From: Blastomussa wellsi
Lineage: Eukaryota; Cnidaria; Anthozoa; Scleractinia; Plerogyridae
Direction of reading: 5' to 3'
DNA length: 64,000 bases
NCBI GenBank assembly: GCA_947652115.1
Contig: OX393563.1
Span: 5,325,659 to 5,389,658, forward strand
Below, in pieces: positions 11,200 to 51,657 of this stretch. Position 1 is the first letter of the stretch. Every line of letters starts with the position of its first letter. The translations under genes were made by a program, and so were the position numbers. The notes under the pieces are model-generated. The model was not told the origin of the DNA and ran no database searches. It worked only from the letters and a program-made list of their open reading frames with translations.

Positions 11200-13650
11200 A
11201 CAAGTTTTCGCAGGGCTATAAGCACCTAGCTCCCCAGAGAGTTCAACCTTGCCGTTGGTTGGGGGGCCTGCGTGCCTCTATGACCCTGAGAGCTGTGCTG
11301 GGGGGAAATTCGTCTCCTGGCAGGGCCACCCAAGCCAGACAGGTCAAAGGGTAGAGTCCAGACGAGGAGCACTCACTGAACCCCCAGGTTGGGGGTTTGA
11401 CTTGGGATAACAACCCGGTCCTGTAAAAACCAGCATGTTACAGAAACCAAACACACATATTCTGAAAACAAAACATGGTCGAGGAAGAGTCCTCTCTAGT
11501 AGAAACCATGGCACGAGCTGGTAAAGACTTGGGGAAGCCGGTGCGCCGACAACTCTTCTGACGACCAAAGCCAAGACCAGGATAGGGACCTGAAACATCA
11601 GAACCCTGTATGAGACCGGAAAAAGTGCATAAGTGTGTAGAGAGATGCATAGGTACAACTTGAAGATCGTAGGACTATGTGAGACAAGATGAACAGGAAC
11701 AGGACGGACAAGACTGAAAAATGCAGACACAATCATCTACTCTGGTCAGGAAGAAGGCCAACCACACATGCCTCGAGTAGCGCTGCTGATGACACCCGAG
11801 GCAATGCGAGCACTGCTGTCCTGGGAACCAGTATCACCAAGGATTATCACCGCAAGATTCAACTCGGAGGGCAAGAAAGTCACCATCGTCCAGTGCTACG
11901 CTCCTACAAACGCAGCAGCTATAGAGGAGAAAGAAGCATTCTATGAACAAATACAAGCAATAATGGACAAAGCACCAAAGAGAGACCTGAAGATCCTCAT
12001 GGGAGACCTGAATGCCAAAGTTGGATCAGACAGCACAGACAAAGAACTCATCATGGACAGACATGGTACTGGAGAACAAAATGAGAATTGTAAACTCTTC
12101 ACAGAGTTTTGTACCTTCAACGACCTTGTGATTGGAGGCACTCTATTTCCCCACAAGACATTCCTCAAGACCACATGGGTTTCCCCTGATGGCAAGTCCG
12201 AGAAACAGATCGACCACATCACTATCGGCAGAAAGTGGAGACGAAGCCTGCATGACGTCAGGGTGAAGCGCCGAGCGGACACAGCATCGGATCACCACCT
12301 GGTTATGGTAGTTCTCAAGACCTACAACGATCAGGTAGGAAGACCACCTCAAAAGTTCAACGTTCGCAGCCTGGAAGAGAAAGCAAAACCAGAAGAATTC
12401 AAGGTCGAGCTGAGAAACAAGTTCAGCATCCTTTCCCCACTACTAGAGGAAACAGTAGAAGAGCAATGGCAAAGTCTTCGAGAGGTCTGGACGACAACAT
12501 GCAAAATAGTCCTGAGGAAGAAAACAAGGAAACACAAAGAATGGCTAACAACGAAGACATGGACACTGATCGTAGACAGAAAATAGCTAAAAGACCAGAT
12601 CAACCAGACACAAGACCAGGAAGATAGGCAAAAAATACAGGCACGCCACTGGAAAATGAACCGGTAAGTGAAGAAGAGTGCGAGAAAAGACAAGAGAAAG
12701 TTCAGACGGCGGGGAGCTGGAGGAACCCTTCACTGTTCAAAACGGCATCCGTCAAGGTTGTTTACTCTCGCCGTCGATCTTTCTGATGGTGGTTGGCTGG
12801 GTCATGAGACAGTCTACAGCAAGCCGGAGGACAGGTATCAAGTGGACCTTTATGAAGCAGCTGGAGGACCTGGACTTCGCAGAAGACATCAGTCTTCTCT
12901 GCCATAAGCAGCGAGACGCACAAGATAAGCTATGTCATGTGGCAACAGAAGCTTAAAAGACTGGGCTCCAAATCAACGTCGGGAAGACTGAGGTCATGAG
13001 GGTGTACAACAAGCAGCAAGATCCAGTGCGACTCCACCAAGGAGACATCAAAGAAGTGGACAAGTTTGTTTACATGGGCAGTGTAGTCAGCAAAGATGAG
13101 GGAACAGATGAAGACATCAAGTGCCGAATAAACAATAACATCCTACGACCAATCTGGAGATCAAAAGCCCTCTTACTCCGCAACAAGATCCGGATCTTTA
13201 ACATTAACATGACGTCAGTCCTACTTTATGGCTCAGAAACGTGGCGTGTAACCAAGAACAACACCCACAAGCTACAGACATTCACCAAAAGATGTCTCAG
13301 AAACATCCCCAACATAAGGTGGCCAGAAGTTGTCTCCAATGAACAACTTTGGGACAGGACAAGCCACTCCCCAATTGAGATTGGCATCAAGAAAAGAAAA
13401 TGGGGACTTTACGCAAGCCTACATCCAACGTCACCAGGCAGGCTCTTGATCGGAACCCACAAGGAAAACGGAAAGTGGGTCGACCCAGACAGACTTGGCG
13501 CAGGAGTGCCGACGCTGAGGCGAAGGCCGCCGGAATTGACGTTGGCCGAGCTGAAGAGGACCAGCCAAAACCGTGTTCGCTGGAGGAGTGCTGTTGCTGC
13601 CCTTTGTTCCCCAAGGAATTAAGAGGCATAACCATAACCATAGGCACCTA
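11200..13650 (+). mobile_element. Decayed APE-type LINE, internally deleted (5' part single-copy)
   Basis: The 5' region (11220-11600) is untranslated leader-like. From about 11640 a broken frame reads LKIVGLCETR and on, then from 11768 a 272-residue frame contains endonuclease motifs: QCYAPTN, LMGDLNAKVG, and ASDHHLV near the end. The family resembles the elements often mis-annotated as craniofacial development protein 2. The N-terminal half of the reverse transcriptase is missing: the sequence jumps near 12660 to QNGIRQGCLLSP and LDFAEDISLL, where the catalytic YADD-type box reads FAED. The C-terminal tail (NPQGKRKVGRPRQTW) and a short CATAACCATAACCATA 3' end follow. It has several frameshifts and stops and is not functional. 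The tandem duplication breakpoint lies inside it at 12009. Confidence 0.8.
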
Positions 13651-14330
13651 AGGCCCAAGAAAACTTGACTGTTTCTTTACAGAGCTCATCGGATCCGGGC
13701 CATTTTTTATGGGTCCGGGCAAGTTTTTGCTGTCGTGTCAACGGCCTTAGCAGGATCGTAGCTAGGATGGGCGATAGGTGCATCCTCCCCCTCCCACGGG
13801 TAACGAAGGTTCGCCTAATCGGAGAGTGAGGGTGAAAATTTCCCGGGGGAGAATACCCCCGGTTCCCTAGGTTCGTGTGCCTCCTGCCTACGGCCCTGCT
13901 TTGAGGCCCGAAGCAAACGAAGCGTGCGCAAGCAAATATGGTAAGAAGCAGATCAAAAATAAAGAGTCGTGCAAAGTGTTGCAGTCTAAAAGAAAAAATA
14001 TCTTGCATAGTCAATAGGCCAAAAACAAAATTTACCCGAGACCAAAACGTCATCCAGTCGAACTTAAATTTACTTTGTAGCTTGCTCTCCAGCTTACTGA
14101 ATTTTGCGACTGTTAGCTGAAAAGGGCATGTTGATTTTGTTTGATCCATATTTGACCAACAAGTGATAAAATAGATAAGGGGATAACAGCATGATCACGT
14201 TCTCTGTCACGAGTGGCTAAAACTAAAATGGTATCAAATGCCCCGAGTGTAGGCCCCTACGCAGTGATACAATTTCACCCTGGGAGGGAGGATGGGCGCT
14301 GCCGGAATTGAGTGATGCATAATTATAACA
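13651..14330. other. Non-coding, repeat-derived; repeated at 37138-37842
   Basis: The minus-strand open frame here (13619-14149; 37133-37537 in B) has no recognisable domain and is interrupted differently in the two copies. It holds GC-rich text with a TCCCCCTCCCACGGG block and an inverted GGGGGAGAATACCCCC patch. I see no gene. Confidence 0.45.
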
Positions 14331-14810
14331 CCAGACTTTCCTCTAGAATGACTTATGTTTTGCCTAAAACCAAGTATATTTAATATTAGCTATCAAGGTG
14401 CTACGACCTGGAATGCTATATCTGATGACATTAAGCTGCTGTCACTTAAACAATTTCAAAATAAATTCAAATCAAGCTTCATTGCAAGCTATTAACCGAA
14501 CTATCTATACTTCTATATCCTCTCTTATCTTAGTTAAGCTGTTTATATACTTTTTCTTCCGGCTATTTCCGCTAAACTTTTAACCTAGTTTACTTTATTT
14601 TTGTCCGTGTGTGTATGCTTGTTGTATGTATTTATTTAAGTCCTATGTACCTGACCTTTAAAATCACTGATGTAAACACTAAGGATGGCTGCCCAGTTCC
14701 TCATTAGCCAATAGTGGTTATTTCGGGCAGCCATGTACTCATTTTATTTTATATTGTCTAGTTTTGTAAACCAAATTAATTTGAGGTACAATAAAGTTGT
14801 TGTTGTTGAA
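14330..14810 (+). pseudogene. CR1/L2-like LINE 3' end (copy A)
   Basis: A frame near 14354 reads KPSIFNISYQGATTWNAISD, then KQFQNKFKSSFIAS and a stop at about 14492. That is the usual C-terminus of CR1/L2-like reverse transcriptases (the FNIRYQG..WN pattern). One frameshift separates it from the upstream piece TRLSSRMTYVLPKTKY. The 3' untranslated part ends ACAATAAAG followed by TTGTTGTTG, a typical short-repeat LINE tail. Confidence 0.7.
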
Positions 14811-15255
14811 GAAAAGGTTTATGTGGAAAGGATTGGTGTAGGTCGTGTAGGCCAATTTTGATCTTATTCTCTCTCCGTAAAATTTAACGCTATAGACTTT
14901 AATATTTCTATAGGTCGATTGATTAAACTCCCTTTAAATAATCGGGCTTGTCGATCAAATGTGAAATTAAACCTTCAGTAACCTTCTGCTGAACCTTAAT
15001 ATCCGAATCTTGATTTTTGAACAAAAAGTCCGCAATTAAATGTCATTTGCAAGATAAAGCGAGCCAAAATACTCGTCAGTGATGAGTCAGTTTTCACTGA
15101 AACAGTTTCACAAAATATGTCGCAATCGTGCTAGCCTTGCATTAGCATTTTAGTCAGCTCTAACAGCAACATCAATAGCCGATCCGTGACATTATCTTAG
15201 TTACTTAATTACTTGACTTTTCTCTCTTATAACGGTACCTCTATATATAGATGAT

Positions 15256-15396
15256 ATTACACGGTGGCGAGAAAATATGAATTTTATGTTCGAGTGGCAA
15301 GAACAATATCTCATGAGTGAGCGCAGCGAACGAGTGCCGGAGATATTGTTCTTTCCACGAGAACATAAAATTCATATCTTTGAGCTAACGTGTAAT
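15256..15396. mobile_element. Long hairpin MITE (copy A)
   Basis: The whole 141 bases fold on themselves: ATTACACGGTGGCGAGAAAA at the left mirrors the right end (TTTGAGCTAACGTGTAAT), and GAATTTTATGTTCGAGTGG mirrors CCACGAGAACATAAAATTC. The loop carries GAGCGCAGCGAACGAGTGC. Non-coding. Confidence 0.75.
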
Positions 15397-16170
15397 TTTC
15401 TTTTTATTATGTAGACAAAAACACGTTGAGTAACACGTTCGTTTGGCAGCTTTGTACACAAACTGAATCGTGCAAGTCGGGAAATGACGCCATCGATATC
15501 CTCACTAGTGAAGATATGGAAAATACGCCACTACGGTCCCGGATGTAGCTTTGTATGAATTTTGTGGTGTAATTCCCAGTAAAACACTCACGTCTATATA
15601 ATAAAAGGAAATAGTGTTTAATATGCCTTATGTTTAAAAACCAAGACTTTCCTTCTACTGGCTATTTAATAAGTATTATCAGTCAAGCCTTTCCACATAA
15701 ACTTTGCTCATCCCTAGTGAGGTTCTCGCGTTCTTATAAAAACATCTCATTTACATCTGGACGCTGATATATATGGATAACGTCTGATTTCAATCGTCTA
15801 GTTTGCTTTAAACCGAAAGCTAAAAGACGATAAAACAATTTAGTTTCTTTATTTTGGTAAGCGATTTCGTCTCGTGAAACGCAATTTAATAATTTACTAA
15901 ATTAAACACGATTTCGCTGCTACTTTTGGATCCTGCTAGGAAAAATATCACATAATCATACACAAATGATTGAGTTGTACACAAAAGGTCTTTTTACCGT
16001 GGTTGTCATAAGTTTTTGCTCCAAAAATCATTAAAGTATTTTTGAAGGTGGTAATTGCTCTTGAAAATTCCCGGACAATCGCCTGAGCACTTGTCACCGA
16101 TTTTATTGTCTCAGCATGTATCCGTTTAGCACAAGTGGATTGCGAATGCTCATTTGCTGAATGTGTATAA

Positions 16171-16276
16171 CCAGGAACTGAACTGAAATTTGTTGGGCAT
16201 GCGCAATAGTGCTATAACTGAGGGAATTGCTTAACGGCAAGCCCAGAAATATTGCAGTAAACGCTGAAACGGATTG
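16171..16276 (+). repeat. 100-base motif flanking the BRICHOS gene, copy 1 (B: 43373-43478)
   Basis: Reads CCAGGAACTGAACTGAAATT, then TTGGGCATGCGCAATAG, then TATAACTGAGGGAATTGC. Related copies lie at 16341-16430 (same strand), 21202-21315 (same strand, just upstream of the BRICHOS promoter) and 24559-24618 (opposite strand). Confidence 0.65.
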
Positions 16277-16340
16277 TCACGTGTCAACCGGAAATGTTCA
16301 GCTCCACAGGTTACCAAACTTTCTTGGATAGCTATAGAGT

Positions 16341-16430
16341 GAATTCAGGCACTAGACTGAAATTTGTTGAGTATTGCTACTATAACTGAAGTGCTTAACG
16401 ACAAGCCGAGTAAAAGCTGCAACGGACATT
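16341..16430 (+). repeat. 100-base motif, copy 2 (B: 43543-43632)
   Basis: A shorter, more diverged copy of the same motif (ACTGAAATTTGTTGAGTATT, then TATAACTGAAGTGCTTAACG). It lies directly beside copy 1. Confidence 0.6.
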
Positions 16431-17077
16431 CACATGACAACCAAAATTTTTCAGCTTAATGGTGATCACATTTTCTTAGGTATGGAGCTCCGCGCAGCTG
16501 GGAACTGCCTGAACTTCAACTTTCAACCAATTCACTGCTTCCATCAACTAATGCAAAATAGCGGGAATTTTCCTGTGCGGCGTGATAGGGAGAAAATTAC
16601 TAAGAACTTTGGAGGGACCATGGATGGCACAAATTAACGGCAGTGTTTCATCACTCAGAAAGCACAAGTTTCTTTAACGTACCAGTGACTTTATTTATTT
16701 TATCTCTCAGTTAATTTTTAGTTTACACCAGTTATGATTTTTACCATTAGCATTATTGTACTACGAATGATTTTAACTGCAGAGCGTTTCGATCCAAAAA
16801 TCCTATTTTCGAAAAAATATTACATAGCGAACCTGTCTTGTTTGAAACTTTGGCTATTATTTCTCTTCTAAAAAAGAAAACTTTTCTCTACCAAAATGAA
16901 GTTTCTTTTACAGCATTATCTCAGTATGTTGCCTGAAGTACCTTGCTTTTTTTATCGGTACTAATTTTTATCGGTAACTGAGAGAAGTTTATTTTAAATC
17001 AACTACTTATTTCACAAGTTTCAATTCTACATATTATCGTCACTGGCGGATCTAATAAGATTTGGATTCCATTCCTT

Positions 17078-20000
17078 TCACTGTCGGTTTAAACCGTAGT
17101 AGCTGCAGCGACGAACCTTTATCCAACGGCAGCAACTCCAGCATCGACCCCAACGACAGCGATAATAACAATAGCGTACCCAATAATAACAACAAAAGTA
17201 AGAACGCTTCGAACCTGCAACAAAAGTATAAATCAAGCAAGTAAGGAAGGAATTATGCAAGTAAGCAAGTATATGATTCTTATATCCACGGTGTAAGACA
17301 AAACATAGCTATTGGCAGCACCGTTAGCCATGACATGACGCAATGCAAGGGAGTGATCAAAGAGTACGTGTCAGACCTTTTTTCTTCAGATCTGAAAGTG
17401 AAAATTTCAATTTCCAAAGCTATACAGTCGAAAATTGAACCGAGACTGACAAAGCCGCTTGTGTATTGACCCAAACCTTATATCTACTCATCGCCTATAT
17501 TAAATCAACCTCGTTCCCAGGGTCTCTCGCTCCGGGAGGGCGGGAAGATGAGAGAACCTGGGAACGAGGTTGATATTAAATAGGTTTCTAGCTTATTACT
17601 ATTAAGACTCGGCTTCAATTTGAAGGCAATTTACACTTAGGGACTTTCCAATAATACTACTGAATTTACACTGATTGACTTCAGTATTACTGAACGGTCC
17701 GGGTAATCGTTCAAAGTCAGCTTCCCTCTCTTGATGAAAAAAAAATATGGGGCCAAGATATCGGGGACCTTAACTGTTTTTGTCGGCCATTTCTTCTTGG
17801 GGAGCTGCTCAGCCTTTTGATTTCGGTAGCCTCGCAGCTCCTATAACCTCCAAATTTCAGTGACAGGGATAGTGTTGCAACCTTATCGTTTTGGGCTAGG
17901 GTCCATTGTTTGTTCTTTTGTCTCACCTGAAGGGTGGTCCCCAATCAGGTGAGACCTTGTAAGAGCTGCGAGGTGACCCTTCGATTTCGCGGCTTGTGGT
18001 TTTCTCAGTTAAACTATAGGAATATCTTTTGTTTTATCCTAAACAGACATTCGATGACATTGACCAATACTTTGTTCAACACTTACGTCTCGGCTCTACC
18101 CCCAGCTTCTCGATGCGATAAATGGGCAGCTCCTTACACAGGGAAGCCATTTCATCACTCAGGTCGGAGCGATCAGTGACAGTCGATACAGCCTTGTATT
18201 CGATGTCTGTCTCGTTCGTTGCTGGTGAGTCGCTTTTCTGTAAAGAATAACAAGAGCAAAGTGAAATAGAAGTAGGTCAGAAAAAAAGCCTTGTACATGC
18301 ATGAAGGGAGGCCTCAGATTTTTTGGGCATCAAGAGAATTTTGGGCAAGGGAACTTGGGAGAATTTTTTGGGCAAATGGTTCACCGGCCCCCCCTGGAAA
18401 AAAATTGCCCGTACACTTATGGGCCTTATATTTGGGAATAAACCTTGGACTTTCTCGTCGAAGTAATTTTGCTAATAAGAAAACGAGAAGGTGTCAAGTT
18501 CCTACAGTCATTTATTTGGGATTAACTCCAGTTTATCTGCTCACCATGTTTGGCTACCAAACGACATTAATATATTATTATACGTCTTTGTTAATTCAGA
18601 GAGCCAATAACTAAAATCAACCAACCAGATTGCTGTATTGCCGGTACAGTATTCTCTAAGTACTGTATATACTTTTTTTACGCGATGCCAAAACAGAGAA
18701 CTTTGCTCGTCCAGGCTCGCATTCAATGCCAAGTTTTTGATTCTCCTGGGACTCAAAATGGCCGCCCTGTGATTAAGGTCTACAAGATCGTGCACTGTCA
18801 TGAATGATCCCGTACGAACATTTTTGAAGATTTTCTTGTATTTTTACAATTTCTCAGTACGGCCCTCGCGCTTGGTTATAAAGATATATTTATTAAAATC
18901 ACTTTGATACTGAGTTACGTTGTAACCTAATGAAGATGTAGATGGTAAATTGAGAAAGACAATCATTTGAATCAGTGGCATGTACTAAAACTAGAAACAC
19001 CGGAATACCGGAACACCGGAACACCACAAAACACGGAACACCGGAACACCAGAAATACCATAAAATGCCAATAAACTTCTGGTGTTCCGGGGTGTTCCGG
19101 GGTTCCGGCGTTCTGGTATTCCGATAATCCTGGATTTAGCACATGCCACTTGAATTACCTGGTCGAGGGCTTTGACGAGGTCATCAGGGTTTGGCGCATT
19201 TTCTGTGGAGTCAATCAGAAAACAGGCTTCTGCAGCCGAAAGACGATGCATGGCCAAGTTCTGCAAACAAGAACAAAAAGGAAATTCTAGCTATTACAAA
19301 AACCGTGACTCATATTTCCAGTTCAGAAAAACAGAAAATAAAGCGAACTAGCAACTAGCACACTGATATAAATAGAAATTATGATAAATTCACTCGTTGG
19401 AATGTTCTTGATAAATCTCATACCGTCATTTAAGAATGCGGCACACAATATTTTTACCTTTTTGAAGTCGTAAATAATGTCGACTTCTCCCGCGTTCGAG
19501 GAATCGGTCTTTGGAATATGAACAGTCTCTGTTTGTTTCTCATTGTCCACTTCAATTTCCTCGTCAACATCTTTATCTCCATCATTAAGTTTGACCTTGT
19601 ACTTGGCCACGGTATCCTTCAAAGGCAAAGAGAAATTATATAATTTCTACTACAAATTAGCTAGTTTCGATGTTCCCGGCTAACATCACTTTCCAGGTGA
19701 AGATCTAGAGTACATGCATGGATGCAACATAAAAATATATAAATGATGTTTGGAGCATCAAAACGTCGAACTACTAATGATTTTTATATTTCTACCGACA
19801 TTTTTTAGCAAACATTTAAGGTGGCTCGAATGAATGTTTGAGTGACGATATGAATGCATAATGCATCGAAATTTACAATTGCACGGAGATTCGAGACAAT
19901 GGATAGTTATAATTAGAACCATAAGCGAACAGCCGGAAAATAAGCGCAATGTTTGACAAATTTGAGGCTACAAATTTGAGGCTACAAATTGACAGCCTTA

Positions 20001-21022
20001 GAATGTTTCAATGAAGTTTAAACGCCGGGATTATATTAAATATTAGTTAATCTACGTGAAGAATAATTTTTAAAAAATCATCTATCGCTTTTGAAATAGT
20101 GAACATTTTAACAAATGTAGTGTCAATTTTGATGAAAAGGCCAAATAACACTCTACTCCAGTTCATATTCAAGCCAGTGTTTTCAGAAATCGAATGGCAC
20201 GATTTTTCTAAGTTTTTTAATAACATCCAGGAATTAATACGTTTTTGTTGTATTTTAACACCTTAAAAGTTCGCCATAAATTTTCTCAAAATCGCTCTAA
20301 TAAAAAATTCTTCAAATTTTGCAGACCTCAAGAAAACTATGTCAGGTCAAAAAACCACTAAGGATTTTTCAAAATTATTTCTTGATGACAAGTAATTCAG
20401 TCTCGAATAAAGTAGGAAATGACGTCACTACGTTGCCATGGTAATTCCGATCTCGATAAAAGGTGCTTCATCTGAAACTTTGATTTTTCTCTAGTGCACT
20501 TGGAGCAATTGATGTTGTGCCAGATACTTTATGGCGGCACACTAGCTGCTAAAAGTTGAAAAGTATCATCACTCGAAAATCCGATCGAGCCACCCTAGAT
20601 AACGTCACACTTACCCTCTTGTTTTCACGTTTAGAAACGGTCGCTGCAGATGTGGCAGCAACAACGACGGCTAAACACAAAAGCAACACTTTGAACTCCT
20701 GGGGAAAGGAACAAATAAAATGAGTTAGAGATTGATCGCCGTTGCTGAAAAGTAAATTAACAGCGGCCTCTGGTTTCTTGTTGCCTGCGCAGGAGACCTT
20801 TTAGGCAGATACAAACCTTAATTCAAACGTTTCTATGCAGACCACGACGGACGGAAAACTTAGGCACTGTTAGCTTTCTACTCCGGACCTCTCTCTGTTA
20901 GGAGAGGCACGTACTTGGACCCACACGAAGTATAGATAAGACAATTTGATCAGGTTTGTACTACATAATGGCTATTCTCCACTTTCAAGGCAGATAAAGT
21001 TTTGTCAAATATAACTTACCAT
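17078..21022 (-). CDS. Secreted BRICHOS precursor with cationic 8-Cys C-terminal peptide (copy A)
   Basis: Six exons on the minus strand: 21020-21022 (only ATG, then GTAAGT), 20615-20698, 19458-19616, 19159-19260, 18087-18237 and 17078-17214. All have GT-AG borders; the phases are 0,0,0,0,1. The product is 211 residues. Residues 1-19 form a signal peptide (VLLLCLAVVVAATSA). An acidic linker follows, then a BRICHOS domain (about 73-157) with its conserved Asp in IYDFKK (D79) and two cysteines, C95 (EACFL) and C150 (SLCKELPIYRI). Then comes PRRSKR, a furin-type site, and a 41-residue tail (171-211) with 8 Cys, 9 Arg/Lys, 13 aromatic and no acidic residues; Cys spacing CC-x6-C-x3-C-x4-C-x2-CC-x7-C. 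This matches the arenicin/alvinellacin plan of annelid antimicrobial precursors, where BRICHOS chaperones the aggregation-prone peptide. The antimicrobial role is inferred. The last exon is visible only as an intron-spanning splice to a strong acceptor (ATACTTTTGTTGCAG). Confidence 0.85.
17081..17203 (-). other. Predicted mature peptide, copy A (41 residues)
   Basis: The segment after RSKR begins SYFCCYYWVRY and ends YYGLNRQ before TGA. It has eight cysteines, net charge about +9, and tryptophans at positions 8, 18, 22 and 27. It could form four disulfides. Aromatic and arginine residues alternate much as in membrane-active beta-hairpin peptides. Processing at RSKR is predicted, not shown. 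Confidence 0.7.
17506..17572. repeat. Hairpin repeat in last BRICHOS intron (B: about 44708-44774)
   Basis: CAACCTCGTTCCCAGG (17506-17521) is perfectly mirrored by CCTGGGAACGAGGTTG (17557-17572). In B the left arm has a CTTAGG change that breaks the pairing. It lies between BRICHOS exons 5 and 6. Confidence 0.75.
18994..19128. repeat. Inverted minisatellite in BRICHOS intron (B: 46195-46305)
   Basis: Tandem GGAACACC-type units on the left face inverted GGTGTTCC-type units on the right, with a spacer of about 40 bases. Copy A has two more units than copy B. It lies between exons 4 and 5 and could form a long hairpin in the transcript. Confidence 0.7.
19818..20596. mobile_element. Possible MITE in BRICHOS intron (B: 47003-47768)
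   Basis: Short inverted ends AAGGTGGCTCGA (19818) and TCGAGCCACCCT (20596) bound about 780 AT-rich bases with no coding capacity, between exons 2 and 3. The short termini make this a tentative call. Confidence 0.4.
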
Positions 21023-21114
21023 CTTTATCGTGTAACAGAAAAGCAACTGGTTCTTCTTTCTTCTTGGATGTAATTCCTTTCTCCACTGAGTATGGATAAA
21101 AATCCACGAGGGAG

Positions 21115-21124
21115 CCCTTTTTAT
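21115..21124 (-). promoter_or_regulatory. TATA-like box of BRICHOS gene, copy A
   Basis: On the minus strand ATAAAAAGGG lies about 100 bases upstream of the ATG. Transcription would start near 21085-21095 and give a 5' leader of about 65-70 bases ending exactly at the ATG/GTAAGT border. Position and sequence suit a core promoter; the exact start is inferred. Confidence 0.5.
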
Positions 21125-21201
21125 GTCATCTGAGGGCTGCCCAATGCTTCCGCATATTTAAGTTAATGGACATTCTACAAGTAAATTTAGTAGCTATATT
21201 T

Positions 21202-21315
21202 TGAATCCAGGAACTGGCCTGAAATTTGCTGTGTATGCGCAGTTACTGTAGTCATAACTGAAGGAAGTGCTAACTGGGAAGTTCATAAATGTTGTGGTAT
21301 AAGCTGAAACGACAG
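21202..21315 (+). repeat. 100-base motif upstream of the BRICHOS promoter, copy 3 (B: 48374-48487)
   Basis: GAATCCAGGAACTGGCCTGA, then TGTATGCGCAGTTACTGTAG, then CATAACTGAAGGAAGTGC. It sits about 80 bases upstream of the TATA-like box of the BRICHOS gene. Together with copies 1 and 2 it brackets the gene with direct repeats. Confidence 0.6.
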
Positions 21316-21924
21316 AAAAGTGTAAAAAGTCTGATGTACATCCCTGATAATTAAGAATGAGGAAACATTGGACAGGCCCGGAGGGAGGGGGTGTGTCCAA
21401 GCAAAACACAGTTTGACTCATCAACTACCAGTTTGACGTCACGTTTAATTCGCTTGGTTGGAATTCAAAATGGCGCCCAATTTGAAGTCGAAGGGGTTGA
21501 CAAAAATGCAGAATTTTCGATGGATATTCTCCTTCATTTCGTTAGGTTCGTTAATTTTGAAGTTTTTGTTGCTTTAGAGAATTTTTATTTGGTACTTTTA
21601 TCGGCCTGAACATCCAAGAGTTAGGCAAACCTTTCTGCCTTGAAGCAAAGTTGTCTAGCAAAGTTATTAGACGGTTGCCCTTTCGAGGGCGACTGCACAG
21701 CGAAGCAAAGCTATCTTGATTCAAGAACAGGAGGTTTGACAGAAGGCAAACTGTGGTTTGTCATATAGCGGAGTGCTCGCTCCTGAGTGGACTGAAGGAA
21801 CAGCTGTATTATTCACATGTTTCCATTTGCCGGCTCTGGGAAGTTTTTCTTTTTAGCTATTAATACATCTACTTTTTAGGTTTCTTACCATACGTTTGTT
21901 AACATAAATATTTGTTGTTTAATC

Positions 21925-23065
21925 AGCGGTGCTGATGCTTACCTAATGCGGGATATGAATTGCAACATGAATGAATTTTATGTGAGACCACAACTTGCGT
22001 CTGTTGTCAGACATTTGCTAATACTTTTTGTTCTTAGCAGCTGATTAACGATTTTACTCGTATCACCAAAATGACTTTTACTTTAATCGATTTGAACATA
22101 CTAATTCACTTGAAAGAGTGGTCTGTTTAGGTGTTTTTCATGTCGGCCGTGATCATACTCCTGTTTATGCGAATTTTTGAATGTAGCTGAAAATCACGCC
22201 CCAATGCCCACAAAGCGCGTTCGTCCAAGCAAATCATTGTGGATTATTCTTGAATAAAAGAAAGGGATGCATGAACTTGACTTATTGAAACTTAAAGCAA
22301 TGCGTTCTAAAAGTTTGCGCAATTGGGCTGATTTCAATAATACCAGACGATAGATTATGGTATACAAACTACAAAGGGACTTTTCAACAAAGAGTCTTCA
22401 ATAAACACAAAAATGATTGTCGAAACACTTGGAACACTATTAATATGAAGAAAATAATAACAAATGGTGTCTCTATCACAAGTTCAGTCGACTTGTCGGA
22501 CGCATTTAATGAACATTTCTCGTCCATAAGCCCTAAACTTACTGTAAAGATCCCATTACTTAACCACAATAGTAATTGTCTTGAAAGCTTCACTGACGTA
22601 CATTCAGACAAAAGCTAGGTTTCAATTCAGTCCCGCCAGCGGCACTGAAGTTCTTTCTCTCTTGAATGAATTTTGAAAATCTAAAGCAACAGGTCTCGAC
22701 AATATACCTGCCAGAATGTGCCGATCTTATTTGTATTCGCATTTGCAAGATTTTTAATTGTTCATTAAATCAAGGCGTATTTCCTGATGATTGGAAATGT
22801 GCTTAAGTTATTTCTCTGCTGAATCAAGGGAAATCGAGCGACACAGTAAATATCGCCCAAATTCAATAATTTCGGTCCATCAGCTAGATATATCTCTCTC
22901 TAGAAATGACATTACTTCGAAATGCCCATCGGGATTCTGTTCCATGCATTCAGCCATGACATCCCTATTAGAAGCTACAGACAGGAGACTTAACGCTAAT
23001 GCTTAAGTTTATTGTTACCTAAAGAAAGCTTGCGACACGGTTGACCACAAGATCTTACTACGTTA
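21925..23065 (+). pseudogene. Decayed CR1/L2-like LINE (endonuclease end to RT start), copy A
   Basis: Broken frames on the plus strand keep LINE landmarks in order: RDMNCNMNEF (endonuclease GDxN region), TLIDLNI, a GVFHVGRDHTPVY-like piece at the SDH position, then KRVRPSKSLW, DLSDAFNEHFSSISPKL, FPDDWKCA and ACDTVDHKILL. Many stops and frameshifts separate them. No active protein is possible. Confidence 0.7.
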
Positions 23066-34733: not shown

Positions 34734-35677
34734 TAATGGTGAGGGTAATTTGCAGAACGCTGAATGCTCACCACAGAAGGCCAAAGGTTAAATGCACTGT
34801 TTGCTTGTGGTTAGTTTCACTCGTGTTTGCTTGCAGTTTCATTCACATTTGCTTGTAGTTATTTTCACTTATGTTTTGATTGCAATTAGTTTTAACTGTT
34901 AGAAAGGGCCCGAAATACAATTCTATGTTGTCCTTCCCAACAATTAAAAGCTCACTGCAAGTTAACATACAGTAAGTGAAACTAACCACAAGCAAACACT
35001 TCATTGAACATTAGGCATTCTACAAATTACCCCTTAGTCAGTATAATTATATAAAAGGTAACAAAACTCACCTTGAACAATTAAATCATACTCAGAATGA
35101 GCAAGTGAAGTGTTGTCAAAAGTCACCAAACATGGTATTTGTCCATTTGATAGACGTGGTTTTACTCCCAGCAGAATTCCATCGTAAGAGTCATCAGTTG
35201 AATAGATCAACTTCAAAAGACCAAGAGAAACACCACATTCTGCTTTAAGAATTGGATGATTATCTCTGTACAATGTGATCTGCAAGTTAAGAGAAATAAC
35301 CATTCCTTATGTTTAATATTAACAAAAAATGAACAGAACATTGTGGAATTGGTAGCAAGTACTTATTTGCATGGAATGTGAAGACAGTTGTCACTATGCA
35401 AATGTAAGCTACACCCGATTATTTATTTGCCGTGTCAGCTGATGGAGAATTGATTTTTTTTCTTTTGTGGTTTTATCAGAAATATATATAAGAATAACTT
35501 GTTTGGTCAGTTCTTATTTAAATTCCAAGTCAAAAGTTGCTATGGTTTGTGAATTTGACTGTTAAAATGTAAACATGCCATTGTGAAGGCCATTGTTTTG
35601 TCCACTGTTCGAGATTCTAGTTTCCTATGAAAATTAAATATAACATCAGCTAAGTACATGTAAAGAAAACGTTTGAA

Positions 35678-37137
35678 TGAATGCCAAAGTGGGATCAGAC
35701 AACACAGACAAAGAACTCATCATGGACAGACATGGTACTGGAGAACAAAATGAGAATTGTAAACTCTTCACAGAGTTTTGTACCTTCAACGACCTTGTGA
35801 TTGGAGGCACTCTATTTCCCCACAAGACATTCCTCAAGACCACATGGGTTTCCCCTGATGGCAAGTCCGAGAAACAGATCGACCACATCACTATCGGCAG
35901 AAAGTGGAGACGAAGCCTGCATGACGTCAGGGTGAAGCGCCGAGCGGACGCAGCATCGGATCACCACCTGGTTATGGCAGTTCTCAAGACCTACAACGAC
36001 CAGGCAGGAAGACCGGCCACCTCACAAGTTCAACGTTCGCAGCCTGGAAGAGAAAGCAAAACCAGAAGAATTCAAGGTCGAGCTGAGAAACAAGTTCAGC
36101 ATCCTTTCCCCACTACTAGAGGAAACAGTAGAAGAGCAATAGCAAAGTCTTTGAGAGGTCTGGACGACAACATGCAAAATAGTCCTGAGGAAGAAAACAA
36201 GGAAACACAAAGAATGGCTAACAACGAAGACATGGACACTGATCGTAGACAGAAAACAGCTAAAAGACCAGATCAACCAGACACAAGACCAGGAAGATAA
36301 GAAGCCGGAGGACTGTAGGTATCAAGTCGACCTTTATGAAGCAGCTGGAGGACCTGGACTTCGCAGAAGACATCAGTCTTCTCTGCCATAAGCAGCGAGA
36401 CGCACAAGATAAGCTATGTCATGTGGCAACAGAAGCTTAAAAGACTGGGCTCCAAATCAACGTCGGGAAGACTGAGGTAATGAGGGTGTACAACAAGCAG
36501 CAAGATCCAGTGCGACTCCACCAAGGAGACATCAAAGAAGTGGACAAGTTTGTTTACATGGGCAGTGTAGTCAGCAAAGATGAGGGAGCAGATGAAGACA
36601 TCAAGTGCCGAATAAACAATAACATCCTACGACCAATCTGGAGATCAAAAGCCCTCTCACTCCGCAACAAGATCCGGATCTTTAACATTAACATGACGTC
36701 AGTCCTATACTTTATGGCTCAGAAACGTGGCGTGTAACCAAGAACAACACCCACAAGCTACAGACATTCACCAACAGATGTCTCAGAAACATCCCCAACA
36801 TAAGGTGGCCAAAGGTAGTCTCCAATGAACAACTTTGGACAGGACAAGCCACTCCCCAATTGAGATTGACATCAAGAAAAGAAAATGGGGACTTTACGCA
36901 AGCCTACATCCAACGTCACCAGGCAGGCTCTTGATTGGAACCCACAAGGAAAACGGAAAGTGGGTCGACCCAGACAGACTTGGCGCAGGAGTGCCGACGC
37001 TGAGGCGAAGGCCGCCGGAATTGACGTTGGCCGAGCTGAAGAGGACCAGCCAAAACCGTGTTCACTGGAGGAGTGCTGTTGCGGCCCTTTGTCCCCCAAG
37101 GAATTAAGAGGCATAACCATAACCATAGGCACCTAGG
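35678..37137 (+). pseudogene. 5'-cut LINE copy at the duplication junction (unit B)
   Basis: Begins abruptly in the endonuclease at NAKVGSDN and follows 12009-13650. Compared with A it has a four-base GGCC gain near 36015 that shifts the frame, a further 190-base deletion near 36300, and small indels near 36707 and 36838. The same FAEDISLL box and C-terminal NPQGKRKVGRPRQTW are present. Confidence 0.85.
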
Positions 37138-37842
37138 CCCGAGAAAACTTGACTGTTTCTTTACAGAGTTCATCGGATCCGGGCCATTTTTTATGGGTCC
37201 GGGCAGGTTTTTGCTGTCGTGTCAACGGCCTTAGCAGGATCGTAGCTAGGATGGGCGATAGGTGCATCCTCCCCCTCCCACGGGTAACAAAGGTTCGCCT
37301 AATCGGAGAGTGAGGGTGAAAATTTCCCGTGGGAGAATACCCCCGGTTCCCTAGGTTCGTGTGCCTCCTGCCTACGGCCCTGCTTTGAGACCCGGAGCAA
37401 ACGAAGCGTGCGCAAGCAAATATGTTAAGAAGCAGATCAAAAATAAAGAGACGTGCAAAGTGTTGCAGTCTAAAAGAAAAAATATCTTGCATAGTCAATA
37501 GGCCAAAAACAAAATTTACCCGAGACCAAAACGTCATCCAGTCGAACTTAAATTTACTCTGTTATGGATGTCCCATTGCGTAGCTTGCTCTCCAGCTTAC
37601 TGAATTTTGCGACTGTTAGCTGAAAAGGGCATGTTGATTTTATTTGATCCATATTTGACCAACAAGTGATAAAATAGATAAGGGGATAACAACATGATCA
37701 CGTTCTCTGTCACGAGTGGCTAAAACTAAAATAGTATCAAATGCCCCGGGTGTAGGCCCTTACGGAGTGATACAATTTCACCCTGGGAGGGAGGATGGGC
37801 GCTGCCGGAATTGAGTGATGCATAATTATAACACCAGACTTT

Positions 37843-38317
37843 CCTCTAGAATGACTTATGTTTTGCCTAAAACCAGGTATATTTAATATTAGATATCAAG
37901 GTGCTACGACCTGGAATGCTATATCTGATGACATTAAGCTGCTGTCACTTAAACAATTTAAAAATAAATTCAAATCAAGCTTCATTGCAAGCTATTAACC
38001 GAACTACCTATACTTCTATATCCTCTCTTATCTTAGTTAATTAAGCTGTTTATATACTTTTTCTTCCGGCTATTTCCGCTAAACTTTTAACCTAGTTTAC
38101 TTTATTTTTGTCCGTGTGTGTATGCGTGTTGTATGTATTTATTTAAGTCCTATGTACCTGACCTTTAAAATCACTGATGTAAACACTAAGGATGGCTGCT
38201 TAGTTCCTCATTAGCCAATAGTGGTTATTTCGGGCAGCCATGTACTCATTTTATTTTATATTGTCTAGTTTTGTAAACCTAATTAATTTGAGGTACAATA
38301 AAGTTGTTGTTGTTGAA
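37843..38317 (+). pseudogene. CR1/L2-like LINE 3' end (copy B)
   Basis: Duplicate of the fragment at 14330-14810, with the same frameshift, the same FNIR/FNIS-type terminus and the same TTG-repeat tail. It differs by a few substitutions and a four-base TTAA gain near 38040. Confidence 0.7.
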
Positions 38318-38756
38318 GAAAAGGTTTATGTGGAAAGGATTGGTGTAGGTCGTGTAGGCCAATTTTGATCTTACTCTCTCTCCGTAAAATTTAACGCTAT
38401 AGACTTTAATATTTCTATAGGTCGATTGATTAAACTCCCTTTAAATAATCGGGCTTGTCGATCAAATGTGAAATTAAACCTTCAGTAACCTTCTGCTGAA
38501 CCTTAATATCCGGATCTTGATTTTTGAACAAAAAGTCCGCAATTAAATGTCATTTGCAAGATAAAGCGAGCCAAAATACTCGTCAGTGATGAGTCAGTTT
38601 TCACTGAAACAGTTTCACAAAAAATGTCGCAATCGTGCTAGCCTTGCATTAGCATTTTAGTCAGCTCTAACAGCAACATCAATAGCCGATCCGTGACATT
38701 ATCTTAGTTACTTAATTACTTGACTTTTCTCTCTTATAACGGTACCTCTATATATA

Positions 38757-40275
38757 ACTGGATTTATGAAAACCAGGTCAAAGAATTAATGACCCCCATC
38801 TCACGTTGTATGGATGAACTGACTTGTTAGGCATGTTAATTAGGCGTAAAAATCGGGTCAAGAAGGGAGCGAGAAGAAAATCCATAATAATAATAGCAAT
38901 GTTAGTAATAATAGTAATAATAATGATAATAATAATATTAATAATCTGTCTTGATTTAGCAAAAAAGGGGCTTGAGGCAATAGAGGAAATGTATGAGATT
39001 TCGATCTATTTTGTTTGTTTTGCGAAGTAACCGTCGGTGACTATTGGCCACTCTTTGCATGAAATCTTACCCTTCATAATGTTCCCATGCCAAATTCGTG
39101 ATGTCTGGTACATTTTACTGTAGCCAACTCCCCCCCCCCCCTCCCTCCCGCACCCCACCCGTTATTTTTGGCCATTTTTACCCAGGCCCCAGCTCGATGA
39201 GTACATCGGTTTGAATTTTTGACACCGCGCGGTAGCTGATCTGTAGGTTTACCAATCCTGCCGTCTAAAGGAAGTTTGCCGGAGGACATCATTAAGTCCA
39301 ATGAAGGTGGAAGTCCAACGATTTGCAATCTAAGCGTCGGCTATTATCTTTCCTTAAACAAAGCTCTAACGGGTGAACTTGAACAACTCGTTACGACTTG
39401 TGCGAGGCGGGATAGTGAGGTGCTTGCTTTAGACGGCAAAAAGTCCTTCGCCACACCAAATAGGACTCCCTACGTATACCGGACTTGACGGGTGATTCGA
39501 AGGCGGCCATGCCGATATGTGGCTGGAACTATTCTGTGGCGAAAGTAAGTGTGAGTACGATTGATTCATGTTCATGCTTTTTTTATGGAGATTTTGCCGC
39601 TAGGTAGAAGTGCCAGATCGGTTTTCCGCTGATCTAAACGGCGATTTGTTCAGTTCGGAAGCGTAGTTTCCGGTCGCTGACCGACATGAACCATGTGCGG
39701 GTCACTAATCAAAGTACATTTCTCAGCTTTAATCCGGAGCTGCCTAAAAATCAAGCGAATCCTTGATGTTACACACTATTTCTCAGATCATTTGAGACCA
39801 TGCATGGCTTGCCGGGTCAACTCTTGCGCTGGAAATTTTGAAGTCTGTGATGCCATTAATTTTTATGTTGTAAATAATAATTTAATTGAATTAGTAGACT
39901 TCGTGATTTTGTTGTTATGCCCAAACTACAATCTTCTTGCTCCGAAAAGACATAGGTTAGATTAATTTGCGTTGATTTGAGTTCAGAATAGTGCCCATTG
40001 ACACCGTGAGTCCTTGCGAAAAGATGCCTTCAGAACTATAGTGTCATGTCAACTTTACCTAACCGAATTCTGTTGAATCAAGACAGAGTAACAATAACAG
40101 TACTTTCGGATAAGTGAGTCACCAAGGAGAATAGAAGCTGCCAATCCTTTTAAATTTTATAGCGTCGACATTGGAGAGAGTTTCTGGCGATAAAACAACC
40201 GCTTTTGGCGAGAAAATACAGCTTCGCAGGTGTTTCGCTCACAATTTCCTTTGACCCGGTTTACATAAATCCAGT
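38757..40275. mobile_element. Inverted-repeat element, copy 1 (1519 bp)
   Basis: Terminal repeats of about 27 bases (ACTGGATTTATG and CATAAATCCAGT ends, both followed inward by GTCAAAG). The interior has an ATAATAAT-rich block, a C-run near 39129 and a consensus GTAAGT donor-like site at 39545. No long open frame. Confidence 0.8.
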
Positions 40276-40280
40276 CATAA

Positions 40281-40774
40281 AATGCCATATTACAAGACCA
40301 ACTGACTCTAAAAGGGCTAAAGATTGCATATTTCCAGACCAGCTGACTAGAAAAAGTCTAAAATAGGCTTCTCCGGTTGCAATAGTTTTTTTTTTCAATG
40401 CATTCTGACAAAACTAGGCCTTGTGTCCGAAACACTGCATCAATTTAAATGCCATATTACAAGACCAACTGACTGTAAAGGGGCTAAAGATTGCATATTT
40501 CCAGACCAGCTGACTAGAAAAAGTCTAAAATAGGCTTCTCCGGTTGCAATAGTTTTTTTTTTCAATGCATTCTGACAAAACTAGGCCTTGTGTCCGAAAC
40601 ACTGCATCAATAAATGCCATATTACAAGACCAACTGACTGTAAAGGGGCTAAAGATTGCATATTTCCAGACCAGCTGACTAGAAAAAGTCTAAAATAGGC
40701 TTCTCCGGTTGCAATAGTTTTTTTTTTCAATGCATTCTGACAAAACTAGGCCTTGTGTCCGAAACACTGCATCA
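40281..40774. repeat. Three tandem repeats of about 165 bases
   Basis: Units 40281-40446, 40447-40611 and 40612-40774 each start AAATGCCATATTACAAGACC (the first one base later) and end GAAACACTGCATCA. They differ by only a few bases and lie only between the two inverted-repeat elements. Confidence 0.92.
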
Positions 40775-40778
40775 TATA

Positions 40779-42441
40779 ACTGGATTTATGAAAACCAGGT
40801 CAAAGAATTAATGACCCCCATCTCACGTTGTATGGATGAACTGACTTGTTAGGCATGTTAATTAGGCGTAAAAATCGGGTCAAGAAGGGAGCGAGAAGAA
40901 AATCCATAATAATAATAGCAATGTTAGTAATAATAGTAATAATAATGATAATAATAATATTAATAATCTGTCTTGATTTAGCAAAAAAGGGGCTTGAGGC
41001 AATAGAGGAAATGTATGAGATTTCGATCTATTTTGTTTGTTTTGCGAAGTAACCGTCGGTGACTATTGGCCACTCTTTGCATGAAATCTTACCCTTCATA
41101 ATGTTCCCATGCCAAATTCGTGATGTCTGGTACATTTTACTGTAGCCAACTCCCCCCCCCCTCCCTCCCGCACCCCACCCGTTATTTTTGGCCATTTTTA
41201 CCCAGGCCCCAGCTCGATGAGTACATCGGTTTGAATTTTTGACACCGCGCGGTAGCTGATCTGTAGGTTTACCAATCCTGCCGTCTAAAGGAAGTTTGCC
41301 GGAGGACATCATTAAGTCCAATGAAGGTGGAAGTCCAACGATTTGCAATCTAAGCGTCGGCTATTATCTTTCCTTAAACAAAGCTCTAACGGGTGAACTT
41401 GAACAACTCGTTACGACTTGTGCGAGGCGGGATAGTGAGGTGCTTGCTTTAGACGGCAAAAAGTCCTTCGCCACACCAAATAGGACTCCCTACGTATACC
41501 GGACTTGACGGGTGATTCGAAGGCGGCCATGCCGATATGTGGCTGGAACTATTCTGTGGCGAAAGACTTAGAAAAATTCTGCTCTAATTTTGGTAGTATT
41601 GTGTCCCGCGCAAAAAAATTTCGTTGCATCCGGGCGATTGCATTCAATTTCCTAGAAAATGGCTAGCTGTGTGGGAAAACCGAGGAATAGCGTGGAATTA
41701 CAGAGCCCTATTTAATGTGAGTACGATTGATTCATGTTCATGCTTTTTTTATGGAGATTTTGCCGCTAGGTAGAAGTGCCAGATCGGTTTTCCGCTGATC
41801 TAAACGGCGATTTGTTCAGTTCGGAAGCGTAGTTTCCGGTCGCTGACCGACATGAACCATGTGCGGGTCACTAATCAAAGTACATTTCTCAGCTTTAATC
41901 CGGAGCTGCCTAAAAATCAAGCGAATCCTTGATGTTACACACTATTCCTCAGATCATTTGAGACCATGCATGGCTTGCCGGGTCAACTCTTGCGCTGGAA
42001 ATTTTGAAGTCTGTGATGCCATTAATTTTTATGTTGTAAATAATAATTTAATTGAATTAGTAGACTTCGTGATTTTGTTGTTATGCCCAAACTACAATCT
42101 TCTTGCTCCGAAAAGACATAGGTTAGATTAATTTGCGTTGATTTGAGTTCAGAATAGTGCCCATTGACACCGTGAGTCCTTGCGAAAAGATGCCTTCAGA
42201 GCTATAGTGTCATGTCAACTTTACCTAACCGAATTCTGTTGAATCAAGACAGAGTAACAATAACAGTACTTTCGGATAAGTGAGTCACCAAGGAGAATAG
42301 AAGCTGCCAATCCTTTTAAATTTTATAGCGTCGACATTGGAGAGAGTTTCTGGCGATAAAACAACCGCTTTTGGCGAGAAAATACAGCTTCGCAGGTGTT
42401 TCGCTCACAATTTCCTTTGACCCGGTTTACATAAATCCAGT
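40779..42441. mobile_element. Inverted-repeat element, copy 2 (1663 bp)
   Basis: Matches copy 1 except for a few substitutions, a shorter C-run and a 150-base segment at 41566-41715, where copy 1 has only TAAG. A frame through this segment (MPICGWNYSVAKDLEKFC and on) stays open for about 45 codons; I do not recognise it. Confidence 0.8.
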
Positions 42442-42457
42442 CATATATATAGATGAT

Positions 42458-42598
42458 ATTACACGGTGGCGAGAAAATATGAATTTTATGTTCGAGTGGC
42501 AAGAACAATATCTCATGAGTGAGCGCAGCGAACGAGTGCCGGAGATATTGTTCTTTCCACGAGAACATAAAATTCATATCTTTGAGCTAACGTGTAAT
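42458..42598. mobile_element. Long hairpin MITE (copy B)
   Basis: Same element as 15256-15396. In unit B a 3.7 kb composite has landed in the TATATATA run 9 bases to its left. Confidence 0.75.
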
Positions 42599-44300
42599 TT
42601 TCTTTTTATTATGTAGACAAAAACACGTTGAGTAACACGTTCGTTTGGCAGCTTTGTACACAAACTGAATCGTGCAAGTCGGGAAATGACGCCATCGATA
42701 TCCTCACTAGTGAAGATATGGAAAATACGCCACTACGGTCCCGGATGTAGCTTTGTATGAATTTTGTGGTGTAATTCCCAGTAAAACACTCACGTCTATA
42801 TAATAAAAGGAAATAGTGTTTAATATGCCTTATGTTTAAAAACCAAGACTTTCCTTCTACTGGCTATTTAATAAGTATTATCAGTCAAGCCTTTCCACAT
42901 AAACTTTGCTCATCCCTAGTGAGGTTCTCGCGTTCTTATAAAAACATCTCATTTACATCTGGACGCTGATATATATGGATAACGTCTGATTTCAATCGTC
43001 TAGTTTGCTTTAAACCGAAAGCTAAAAGACGATAAAACAATTTAGTTTATTTATTTTGGTAAGCGATTTCGTCTCGTGAAACGCAATTTAATAATTTACT
43101 AAATTAAACACGATTTCGCTGCTACTTTTGGATCCTGCTAGGAAAAATATTACATAATCATACACAAATGATTGAGTTGTACACAAAAGGTCTTTTTACC
43201 GTGGTTGTTATAAGTTTTTGCTCCAAAAATCATTAAAGTATTTTTGAAGGTGGTAATTGCTCTTGAAAATTCCCGGACAATCGACTGAGCACTTGTCACT
43301 GATTTTATTGTCTCAGCATGTATCCGTTTAGCACAAGTGGATTGCGCATGCTCATTTGCTGAATGTGTGTATCCAGGAACTGAACTGAAATTTGTTGGGC
43401 ATGCGCAATAGTGCTATAACTGAGGGAATTGCTTAACGGCAAGCCCAGAAATATTGCAGTAAACGCTGAAACGGATTGTCACGTGTCAACCGGAAATGTT
43501 CAGCTCCACAGGTTACCAAACTTTCTTGGATAGCTATAGAGTGAATTCAGGCACTAGACTGAAATTTGTTGAGTATTGCTACTATAACTGAAGTGCTTAA
43601 CGACAAGCCGAGTAAAAGCTGCAACGGACATTCACATGACAACCAAAATTTTTCAGCTTAATGGTGATCACATTTCCTTAGGTATGGAGCTCCGCGCAGC
43701 TGGGAACTTCCTGAACTTCAACTTTCAACCAGTTCACTGCTTCCAGCAACTAATGCAAAATAGCGGGAATTTTCCTGTGCGGCGTGATAGGGAGAAAATT
43801 ACTAAGAACTTTGGAGGGACCATGGATGGCACAAATTAACGGCAGTGTTTCATCACTCAGAAAGCACAAGTTTCTTTAACGTACCAGTGACTTTATTTAT
43901 TTTATCTCTCAGTTAATTTTTAGTTTACACCAGTTATGATTTTTACCATTAGCATTATTGTACTACGAATGATTTTAACTGCAGAGCGTTTCGATCCAAA
44001 AATCCTATTTTCGAAAAAATATTACATAGCGAACCTGTCTTGTTTGAAACTTTGGCTATTATTTCTCTTCTAAAAAAGAAAACTTTTCTCTACCAAAATG
44101 AAGTTTCTTTTACAGCATTATCTCAGTATGTTGCCTGAAGTACCTTGCTTTTTTTATCGGTACTAATTTTTATCGGTAACTGAGAGAAGTTTATTTTAAA
44201 TCAACTACTTATTTCACAAGTTTCAATTCTACATATTATCGTCACTGGCGGATCTAATAAGATTTGGATTCCATTCCTTTCACTGTCGGTTTCAACCGTA

Positions 44301-48194: not shown

Positions 48195-48286
48195 CTTTAT
48201 CGTGTAACAGAAAAGCAACTGGTTCTTCTTTCTTCTTGGATGTAATTCCTTTCTCCACTGAGTATGGATAAAAATCCACGAGGGAG

Positions 48287-48296
48287 CCCTTTTTAT
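48287..48296 (-). promoter_or_regulatory. TATA-like box of BRICHOS gene, copy B
   Basis: The same ATAAAAAGGG as in copy A, at the same distance from the ATG. The flanking 5' leader is conserved, so both copies keep a core promoter. Confidence 0.5.
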
Positions 48297-50240: not shown

Positions 50241-50387
50241 TACGTACGTAAAATAAAAAAGAATTGTATGGACGCCTTGCGTCTTCGGAAAAGTTGAATG
50301 TGGTTTAACTTTTTCCGCAGACGCGAGACGTTAATTTCACGCCCGTTAACGTACGGAAAATAACGCAACACTGGAAATCAACCTTGA

Positions 50388-50453
50388 GGTGGATTTCCAC
50401 TGTCGCGTATTTTTTTACGCACGTAAAAATATACGCGACAGTGGAAATCCACC
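50388..50453. mobile_element. Perfect hairpin MITE end, only in unit B
   Basis: GGTGGATTTCCACTGTCGCG (50388) is mirrored by the end at 50453, with a TTTTTTTACGCACGTAAAAAT centre. Unit A has only a shorter ACACTGGAAATCCACC remnant near 23215, so the arm was lost in A or gained in B. Confidence 0.65.
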
Positions 50454-51560: not shown

Positions 51561-51657
51561 AGTTCTTCTTTCTTCTTGTGGCAGAGGACTTGTAGCTTTC
51601 TCCACTGACTTTGGATACAAACCCAGGAGGGAATGTTTTTATGCCACCTCAGAGCTG
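51561..51657 (-). pseudogene. Relic of a BRICHOS-gene 5' exon and promoter (copy B)
   Basis: Same relic as 24349-24445, carried along in unit B with almost no change. Confidence 0.5.

Follow-up and report, generated by a model that had tools for sequence, protein, structure and literature searches.

We analysed a stretch of 64,000 nucleotides from the genome of the stony coral Blastomussa wellsi (contig OX393563.1 of the GenBank assembly GCA_947652115.1, forward-strand positions 5,325,659 to 5,389,658; hereafter the window), which carries on its minus strand, from position 21022 to position 17078, a six-exon gene for a precursor protein with a BRICHOS domain, a basic cleavage site and a cysteine-rich tail. 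This gene (copy A; a second copy, B, lies in the same window) was confirmed to be a real coral gene. Its product is probably a secreted host-defence prepropeptide, belonging to a duplicating gene family in which selection by microbes would drive a fast change of the last exon. The main new result is this fast-changing exon, which codes for the predicted effector peptide.

The precursor gene and its tandem duplicate

The six exons of copy A, all on the minus strand, splice to a single open frame of 211 codons plus a stop, and all five introns have GT-AG ends. The coding part of exon 1 (21020..21022) is the ATG only, preceded by a 5' untranslated region (UTR) and a TATA-like CATAAAAAG. As read from the spliced translation and hidden Markov model (HMM) matches, exon 2 (20615..20698) encodes a hydrophobic, signal-peptide-like segment, in which the N-terminal hydrophobic MEFKVLLLCLAVVVAATSA was judged by eye to be a candidate signal or anchor; exon 3 (19458..19616) encodes an acidic linker and the start of the BRICHOS domain, its last residues being IYDFKK; exon 4 (19159..19260) contributes the part of the domain with the Cys of EACFL; and exon 5 (18087..18237) contributes the end of the domain (SLCKELPIY) and, at a phase-1 donor, the first base of a split Arg codon. 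Exon 6 (17078..17214) completes the RSKR site and continues with a predicted mature peptide of 41 residues and a stop, so that the junction 18087|17214 divides an Arg codon of the cleavage site. The precursor is therefore ordered as hydrophobic N-terminus, acidic linker, BRICHOS, RSKR and a tail coded by its own last exon.

The copy A protein matched the Pfam family PF04089 (BRICHOS) over residues 73-157 with 47.2 bits (E 2.7e-12), the curated cut-off being 25 bits; a match to FAM176 (E 0.23) was under the cut-off and was disregarded. The BRICHOS residues Asp D79 and Cys C95 are invariant in a 30-row alignment, and C150 is present in at least 90% of it. The 41-residue tail contains 8 Cys, 9 basic and 13 aromatic residues and lacks acidic ones. 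Such a make-up was found in 30 of the 17,579 stop-free 41-residue stretches in the six frames of the window, all located at exon 6 or its duplicate; the filter used, chosen after the tail had been seen, required no fewer than 6 Cys, 6 basic and 8 aromatic residues and allowed one acidic residue at most. A preliminary description of this DNA had proposed the six phase-consistent exons, the junction 18087|17214, the linker, the BRICHOS domain, the basic cleavage site and the composition of the tail. All of these agree with the spliced translation, the junction at sequence level, and the BRICHOS HMM comparison that it had proposed gave the match reported above.

Within 1 kb upstream of the gene no three-unit heat-shock element was detected, and two two-unit matches only were found. 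The window gene and two C12 paralogues (L031 and L034) are 74-76% similar over some 90 bp of core promoter and 5' UTR, a likeness in sequence which suggests that their regulation may be shared.

The window carries a head-to-tail duplication with units of 24-28 kb. Unit A occupies 12009..35586, its left breakpoint lying within an open reading frame (ORF) that resembles a retroelement endonuclease, and unit B occupies 35678..64000, where the match runs to the window end; the two units show 278 differences over 22,776 aligned bases (1.2%). Unit B harbours the second gene copy, missed by the preliminary description (44301..48194, minus strand; exons 48194-48192, 47870-47787, 46801-46643, 46445-46344, 45439-45289 and 44416-44301), with a tail of 34 residues and 10 Cys. 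The copy B peptide stops one residue past its last Cys, which is the most frequent ending in the family: of 68 tails, 47 have at most two residues after the last Cys, and in 26 of these there is exactly one. An HMM scan of the six-frame ORFs of the window detected, above threshold, the exons of these two copies only, and no third.

Exons 1 to 5 of the two copies differ at four of 499 bases. In exon 6, 11 of the 137 bases are different, compared with 267 of the 22,639 bases in the rest of the unit (Fisher P 1.0e-6), which corresponds to a rate of change about seven times as high; the contrast holds when the comparison is confined to the local 7.8 kb (79/7,780; P 3.6e-7). The difference count of exon 6 is the highest among all 22,095 segments of 137 bases in the unit. 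The 11 differences, which are all those found between 17384 and 16544, lie within 17091..17191 on the minus strand, and each of them alters the peptide, two of them by giving stops; they fall in 9 codons. Around these changes copies A and B are identical, cleavage site included, for 192 bases before and 546 bases after (about 840 bp).

The rate of nonsynonymous change (dN) was higher in the tail than in the prodomain in all of the eight gene pairs compared, for example 0.106 versus 0.009 between copies A and B and 0.111 versus 0.070 in the C2 pair; the eight pairs were hand-chosen and share genes, so they are non-independent, and the comparison omits the more distant C22 and C23 as well as four loci without a convincing tail exon. 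Relaxed constraint alone would let exon 6 keep up with introns at most. The simplest cause of the fast change is positive selection acting on the peptide, and the pattern fits an evolutionary contest with microbes.

Other features were observed in and around the duplicated units. The second most divergent 137-base segment (33306-33442, 10 differences) is next to a TTA microsatellite and close to an ORF of 198 codons. Two stretches, 24350-24627 and 51562-51839, are 74-80% like the sequence at the head of the BRICHOS gene, promoter and 5' UTR included (TATA-like box, GTGGAGAAAG, AAGAAGAAAGAAGAAC); each has two parts in opposite orientation, no adjoining BRICHOS exons were found, and they are perhaps remnants of a further copy. 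More sequence resembling the BRICHOS upstream region is located downstream of each gene copy, at 16171-16374 and 43368-43576. Some sequence of unit B is absent from unit A: a reverse transcriptase ORF (53572-54771; RVT_1, E 2.3e-25) lies in one such stretch, and repeats at 38752-42445, shifted locally by about 2 kb and by 167 bp, lie in another. C2H2 zinc-finger ORFs at 28729-29523 and 32389-32802 are duplicated at 57374-58168 and 61028-61444. At 5906-7063 there is a single-ORF rhodopsin-type G protein-coupled receptor (7tm_1, E 2.2e-14), whose nearest named relative is the Oculina patagonica 'adenosine receptor A3-like' protein (74% identity).

Gene family and structural predictions

A search with the spliced protein gave 30 homologues and a search with a 22-row alignment gave 225, of which the best 120 were listed. 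Only stony corals occur among the species named in the matches listed, from the genera Oculina, Porites, Pocillopora, Acropora, Montipora and Desmophyllum, in agreement with the anthozoan origin that had been assigned to the DNA from its letters. From both lists a set of 121 database proteins was compiled, of which 70 carry an RxKR-type site and a tail after the BRICHOS domain, the combination for which a search of coral relatives had been recommended. Another 14 are cut short, 26 are without the BRICHOS end motif, and 11 have other endings without the site, some Cys-rich and some apparently misread. The tails of the 70 site-bearing relatives have 0-10 Cys and a median length of 34 residues, and 54 of them are net positive. 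Across the family the BRICHOS domain is conserved and a basic cleavage site frequent, and the tail varies greatly. The protein models P0003, P0013, P0044, P0068 and P0072 end like a read-through of the exon-5 donor (...RKC..., ...RK), with the tail missing, which fits the concern raised in the preliminary description that annotation may stop too early; gene models that end at exon 5 conceal peptides from proteome searches.

Of the 30 homologues from the protein search, 13 are on contigs of 922-1,721 nt that carry the BRICHOS domain, the site and the tail together. These contigs are most simply regarded as spliced transcripts, because the modelled genes with exon 2 span at least about 2.3 kb.

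The B. wellsi genome (368 Mb, 124 contigs) was scanned by protein query, so that locus counts are lower bounds. An exon-5 match marks at least 19 BRICHOS loci in it, both window copies among them, and one further locus is partial. A plausible tail exon, each with a phase-1 junction, was present at 15 of the 19 loci, a tally biased towards the expected form since the ranking of exon 6 candidates favoured Cys and an early KR; at the other four no convincing tail exon was found. The 13 gene models built all show exons 3 to 6 in the same order and the phase-1 junction, and exon 2 could be placed in 10. R-x-K-R stands exactly at the junction in 7 models, and another basic site stands at or near it in 6. 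The tails of these paralogues comprise short peptides rich in Cys, Arg and aromatic residues (C4, C12a, C12c and C2), tails with repeated VC motifs (C12d and C9) and longer Cys-rich domains (C10 and C20). In a prodomain tree constructed from the 13 models and 35 proteins chosen from the 121, the window copies A and B pair together (support 100/100) and are placed among Oculina, Porites and unnamed genes.

The tails were compared with the 177,635 sequences of the PDB. Alvinellacin was the top match for the tails of C2b, C2a and the Oculina homologue P0009 (E 0.088, 0.072 and 1.3, respectively), and it was retrieved by neither of two shuffled tails in which the Cys positions were kept fixed. The list for the C2b tail also contained a nematocyst outer wall antigen domain (2hm6, E 0.5), the 'BRICHOS domain-containing protein' 7ald (E 2.3), which we take to be capitellacin, and NZ17074(N1) (E 2.6), presumably an arenicin derivative; that for the C2a tail contained polyphemusin-1 (E 0.59). 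The AlphaFold model of P0009 has a BRICHOS-like core and a terminal hairpin with strands 182-191 and 194-203, for which the predicted local distance difference test score (pLDDT) is about 77-79, falling to 69 in the last four residues. When this model was searched with Foldseek, the BRICHOS domains of Bri2 and proSP-C filled the top six places (probability 1.00, E 1.8e-3 to 5.6e-2). The fold predicted for this one homologue is accordingly that of BRICHOS.

Proposed function and alternative explanations

In the host-defence reading, the BRICHOS domain would act as a built-in chaperone that keeps a sticky, beta-prone, cationic peptide rich in Cys and aromatic residues soluble, and a furin-like convertase would cut at the R-x-K-R observed in the precursor. 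The freed peptide may fold as a disulfide-bonded beta-hairpin or small beta-sheet, as modelled in the homologue, and would damage microbial membranes as alvinellacin- and arenicin-type relatives do; by this analogy we infer an antimicrobial action for the window peptide. The family would grow by duplication and microbial selection would speed the last exon, the signal, chaperone and cleavage parts staying nearly fixed, as seen in one near-identical pair. A wider proposal is put forward tentatively, as possible rather than probable: stony corals may hold a germline arsenal made of a fixed cassette (signal, BRICHOS, R-x-K-R and phase-1 intron) and a fast last exon, and the 'BRICHOS chaperone' response to heat may in fact be a release of peptides. 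If this were true, heat stress would directly reset which bacteria or algae a coral tolerates. Corals rely on the microbes they keep, and precursors of Cys-rich peptides would tie heat stress to the control of the microbiome.

Several observations weigh against the host-defence reading or the part that selection plays in it. Sixteen of the 70 site-bearing relatives have tails that are not net positive. The alvinellacin matches of the sister and homologue tails fail to reach E 0.05, and the window tail itself gave only a chance-level match in the PDB (best E 0.41). The protein modelled is the Oculina homologue with a 6-Cys tail, not the window protein, the confidence of its model is modest (mean pLDDT 65.6, predicted template modelling score 0.49), and its Foldseek search gave no match at E <= 0.001. 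Two other 137-base segments of the unit approach exon 6, with 10 and 9 differences. The lack of synonymous changes among the 11 has a neutral P of 0.10, so the case for selection stands on the rate and the place of the changes; and, besides A/B, tail dN is not above dS, the synonymous rate, in the three other pairs for which tail dS could be estimated.

The pattern of the exon 6 changes counts on the same side. They include adjacent runs of three (17138-17136) and two (17118-17117) bases, and the set is rich in transversions, transitions making up 3 of the 11 changes versus 152 of the 267 elsewhere (P 0.066). Because of these neighbouring changes and few transitions, conversion from an unseen exon 6 lineage is the main alternative to positive selection. 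The contrast could reflect gene conversion or recombination between old exon 6 lineages, or A and B could represent a pair of haplotypes assembled in tandem; two haplotypes of one coral might differ by 1.2%, the divergence measured here, and the exon 6 contrast would then hold between alleles instead. We consider this group of explanations doubtful, though the most serious of the alternatives. The head-to-tail units differ by insertions, such as the RVT_1 ORF at 53572-54771 present in B only, which speaks against haplotypes. As to conversion, the protein query, whose counts are lower bounds, placed a similar exon 6 at just two positions of the assembly, and no donor was seen; old exon 6 lineages held apart would, moreover, themselves suggest balancing selection.

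The same precursor might serve a different target, as a venom or nematocyst peptide or as a cross-linked peptide of capsule or mucus, with a diversity that tracks prey or competitors. Cnidarian venoms typically contain secreted peptides rich in Cys, and one sister tail weakly matches the nematocyst antigen domain 2hm6. This is unlikely in our view, as the sister tails find their best match in alvinellacin, an antimicrobial peptide, and coral BRICHOS proteins are reported to rise with heat (PMC5299404, PMC8590396) and in settling larvae (PMC12960093), a pattern not obviously that of a venom; here and below, our statements on cited work refer to excerpts of the papers. Less probable still is the view that BRICHOS itself does the work, as a heat-induced secreted chaperone, the tail being a dispensable client or leftover. 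The coral literature does take BRICHOS proteins as possible chaperones (PMC5299404, PMC8590396), and the tail is absent in 14 of the 121 database proteins. However, at least 5 of these 14 end like the read-through described above, the cleavage site and the Cys-rich tail recur in different paralogues and in different genera, and a tail without use would not outrun introns, whereas exon 6 outpaces the rest of the unit about sevenfold. That the last exon is a misread piece of intron, or the whole gene a pseudogene, is hardly credible: copy B does stop after 34 tail residues where the frame of copy A is longer, but its ending is the commonest in the family (26/68), the order of exons 3 to 6 and the phase-1 junction are repeated in the 13 models, and the short-contig homologues contain the same set of parts. 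A spurious exon 6 was ruled out because a similar exon recurs in paralogues and relatives.

Comparison with known BRICHOS precursors

The published BRICHOS proteins of Pocillopora, Stylophora, Balanophyllia and Montipora can be likened to the window protein as the same kind of protein. An alignment of 238 BRICHOS sequences from 15 coral species has been reported, together with their enrichment among strongly heat-changed genes and an up to 380-fold rise of Stylophora BRICHOS at +6 C with lowered pH, the role being left open (PMC5299404). Early in heat stress two Montipora BRICHOS genes showed fold-changes of 5.94 and 5.40 (PMC8590396), and two Pocillopora BRICHOS proteins in settlers were called predicted antimicrobial peptides in 2026 (PMC12960093). 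The idea of a coral host-defence peptide given in the preliminary description has thus been published in part; the type of precursor it named is supported here, and the defence role is what we infer from it; symbiont control, which it named as the other option, might be a role as well. In the excerpts, the coral proteins are read as chaperones or as single predicted peptides, without a fast-changing separate effector exon, and no account of such an exon in coral BRICHOS genes was found in the open-access literature sampled, with subscription papers and preprints outside that scope.

Vertebrate Bri2 (ITM2B) and proSP-C share the BRICHOS fold, and Bri2 gave a weak sequence match to the window protein (E 0.017). 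They differ in the peptide released, and in proSP-C the peptide stands before the BRICHOS domain (PMC9714404). The polychaete precursors of arenicin, capitellacin, nicomicin, HfBRI and AmBRI are closer in form, with a BRICHOS precursor, a basic site and a C-terminal peptide, and copy A likewise has a furin-type site after BRICHOS (RSKR) and a cationic C-terminal peptide coded by the last exon (9 basic, 0 acidic residues). These animals are of another phylum, and the window tail had no PDB match to any of their peptides. The number of cysteines, at first thought to set the coral peptide apart, does not do so: the tails of HfBRI proteins range from 18 to 91 residues, HfBRI-75 and HfBRI-91 have 11 Cys without being markedly cationic (PMC10745061), and four disulfides are present in AmBRI-44a (PMC11767717). 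Some annelid BRICHOS peptides are helical (PMC10745061).

The parallel drawn at the outset with arenicin and alvinellacin precursors is supported by the architecture, by the PDB matches of the sister tails and by the fold predicted for the homologue. The preproalvinellacin of Alvinella likewise consists of a signal peptide, a linker, BRICHOS and a C-terminal peptide, and its gene has five introns, the peptide in the last exon and a place in a tandem multigene family (PMC5431198). In the PDB, alvinellacin is a chain of 22 residues; the window tail has 41, with 8 Cys. The conservation of the mature peptide between paralogues that is seen in the narrow alvinellacin gene family was not found in the coral pair, where 11 of 137 bases of exon 6 differ: Alvinella has a monomorphic peptide and a diversifying BRICHOS domain (PMC5431198), and in coral copies A and B this is reversed. 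By its architecture the window gene represents the BRICHOS-precursor kind of peptide in stony corals, the new twist being a conserved cassette joined to a fast effector exon, and the contrast between Alvinella and coral lends itself to a clean comparative test of the ways in which symbiosis and infection act on each half of a single gene.

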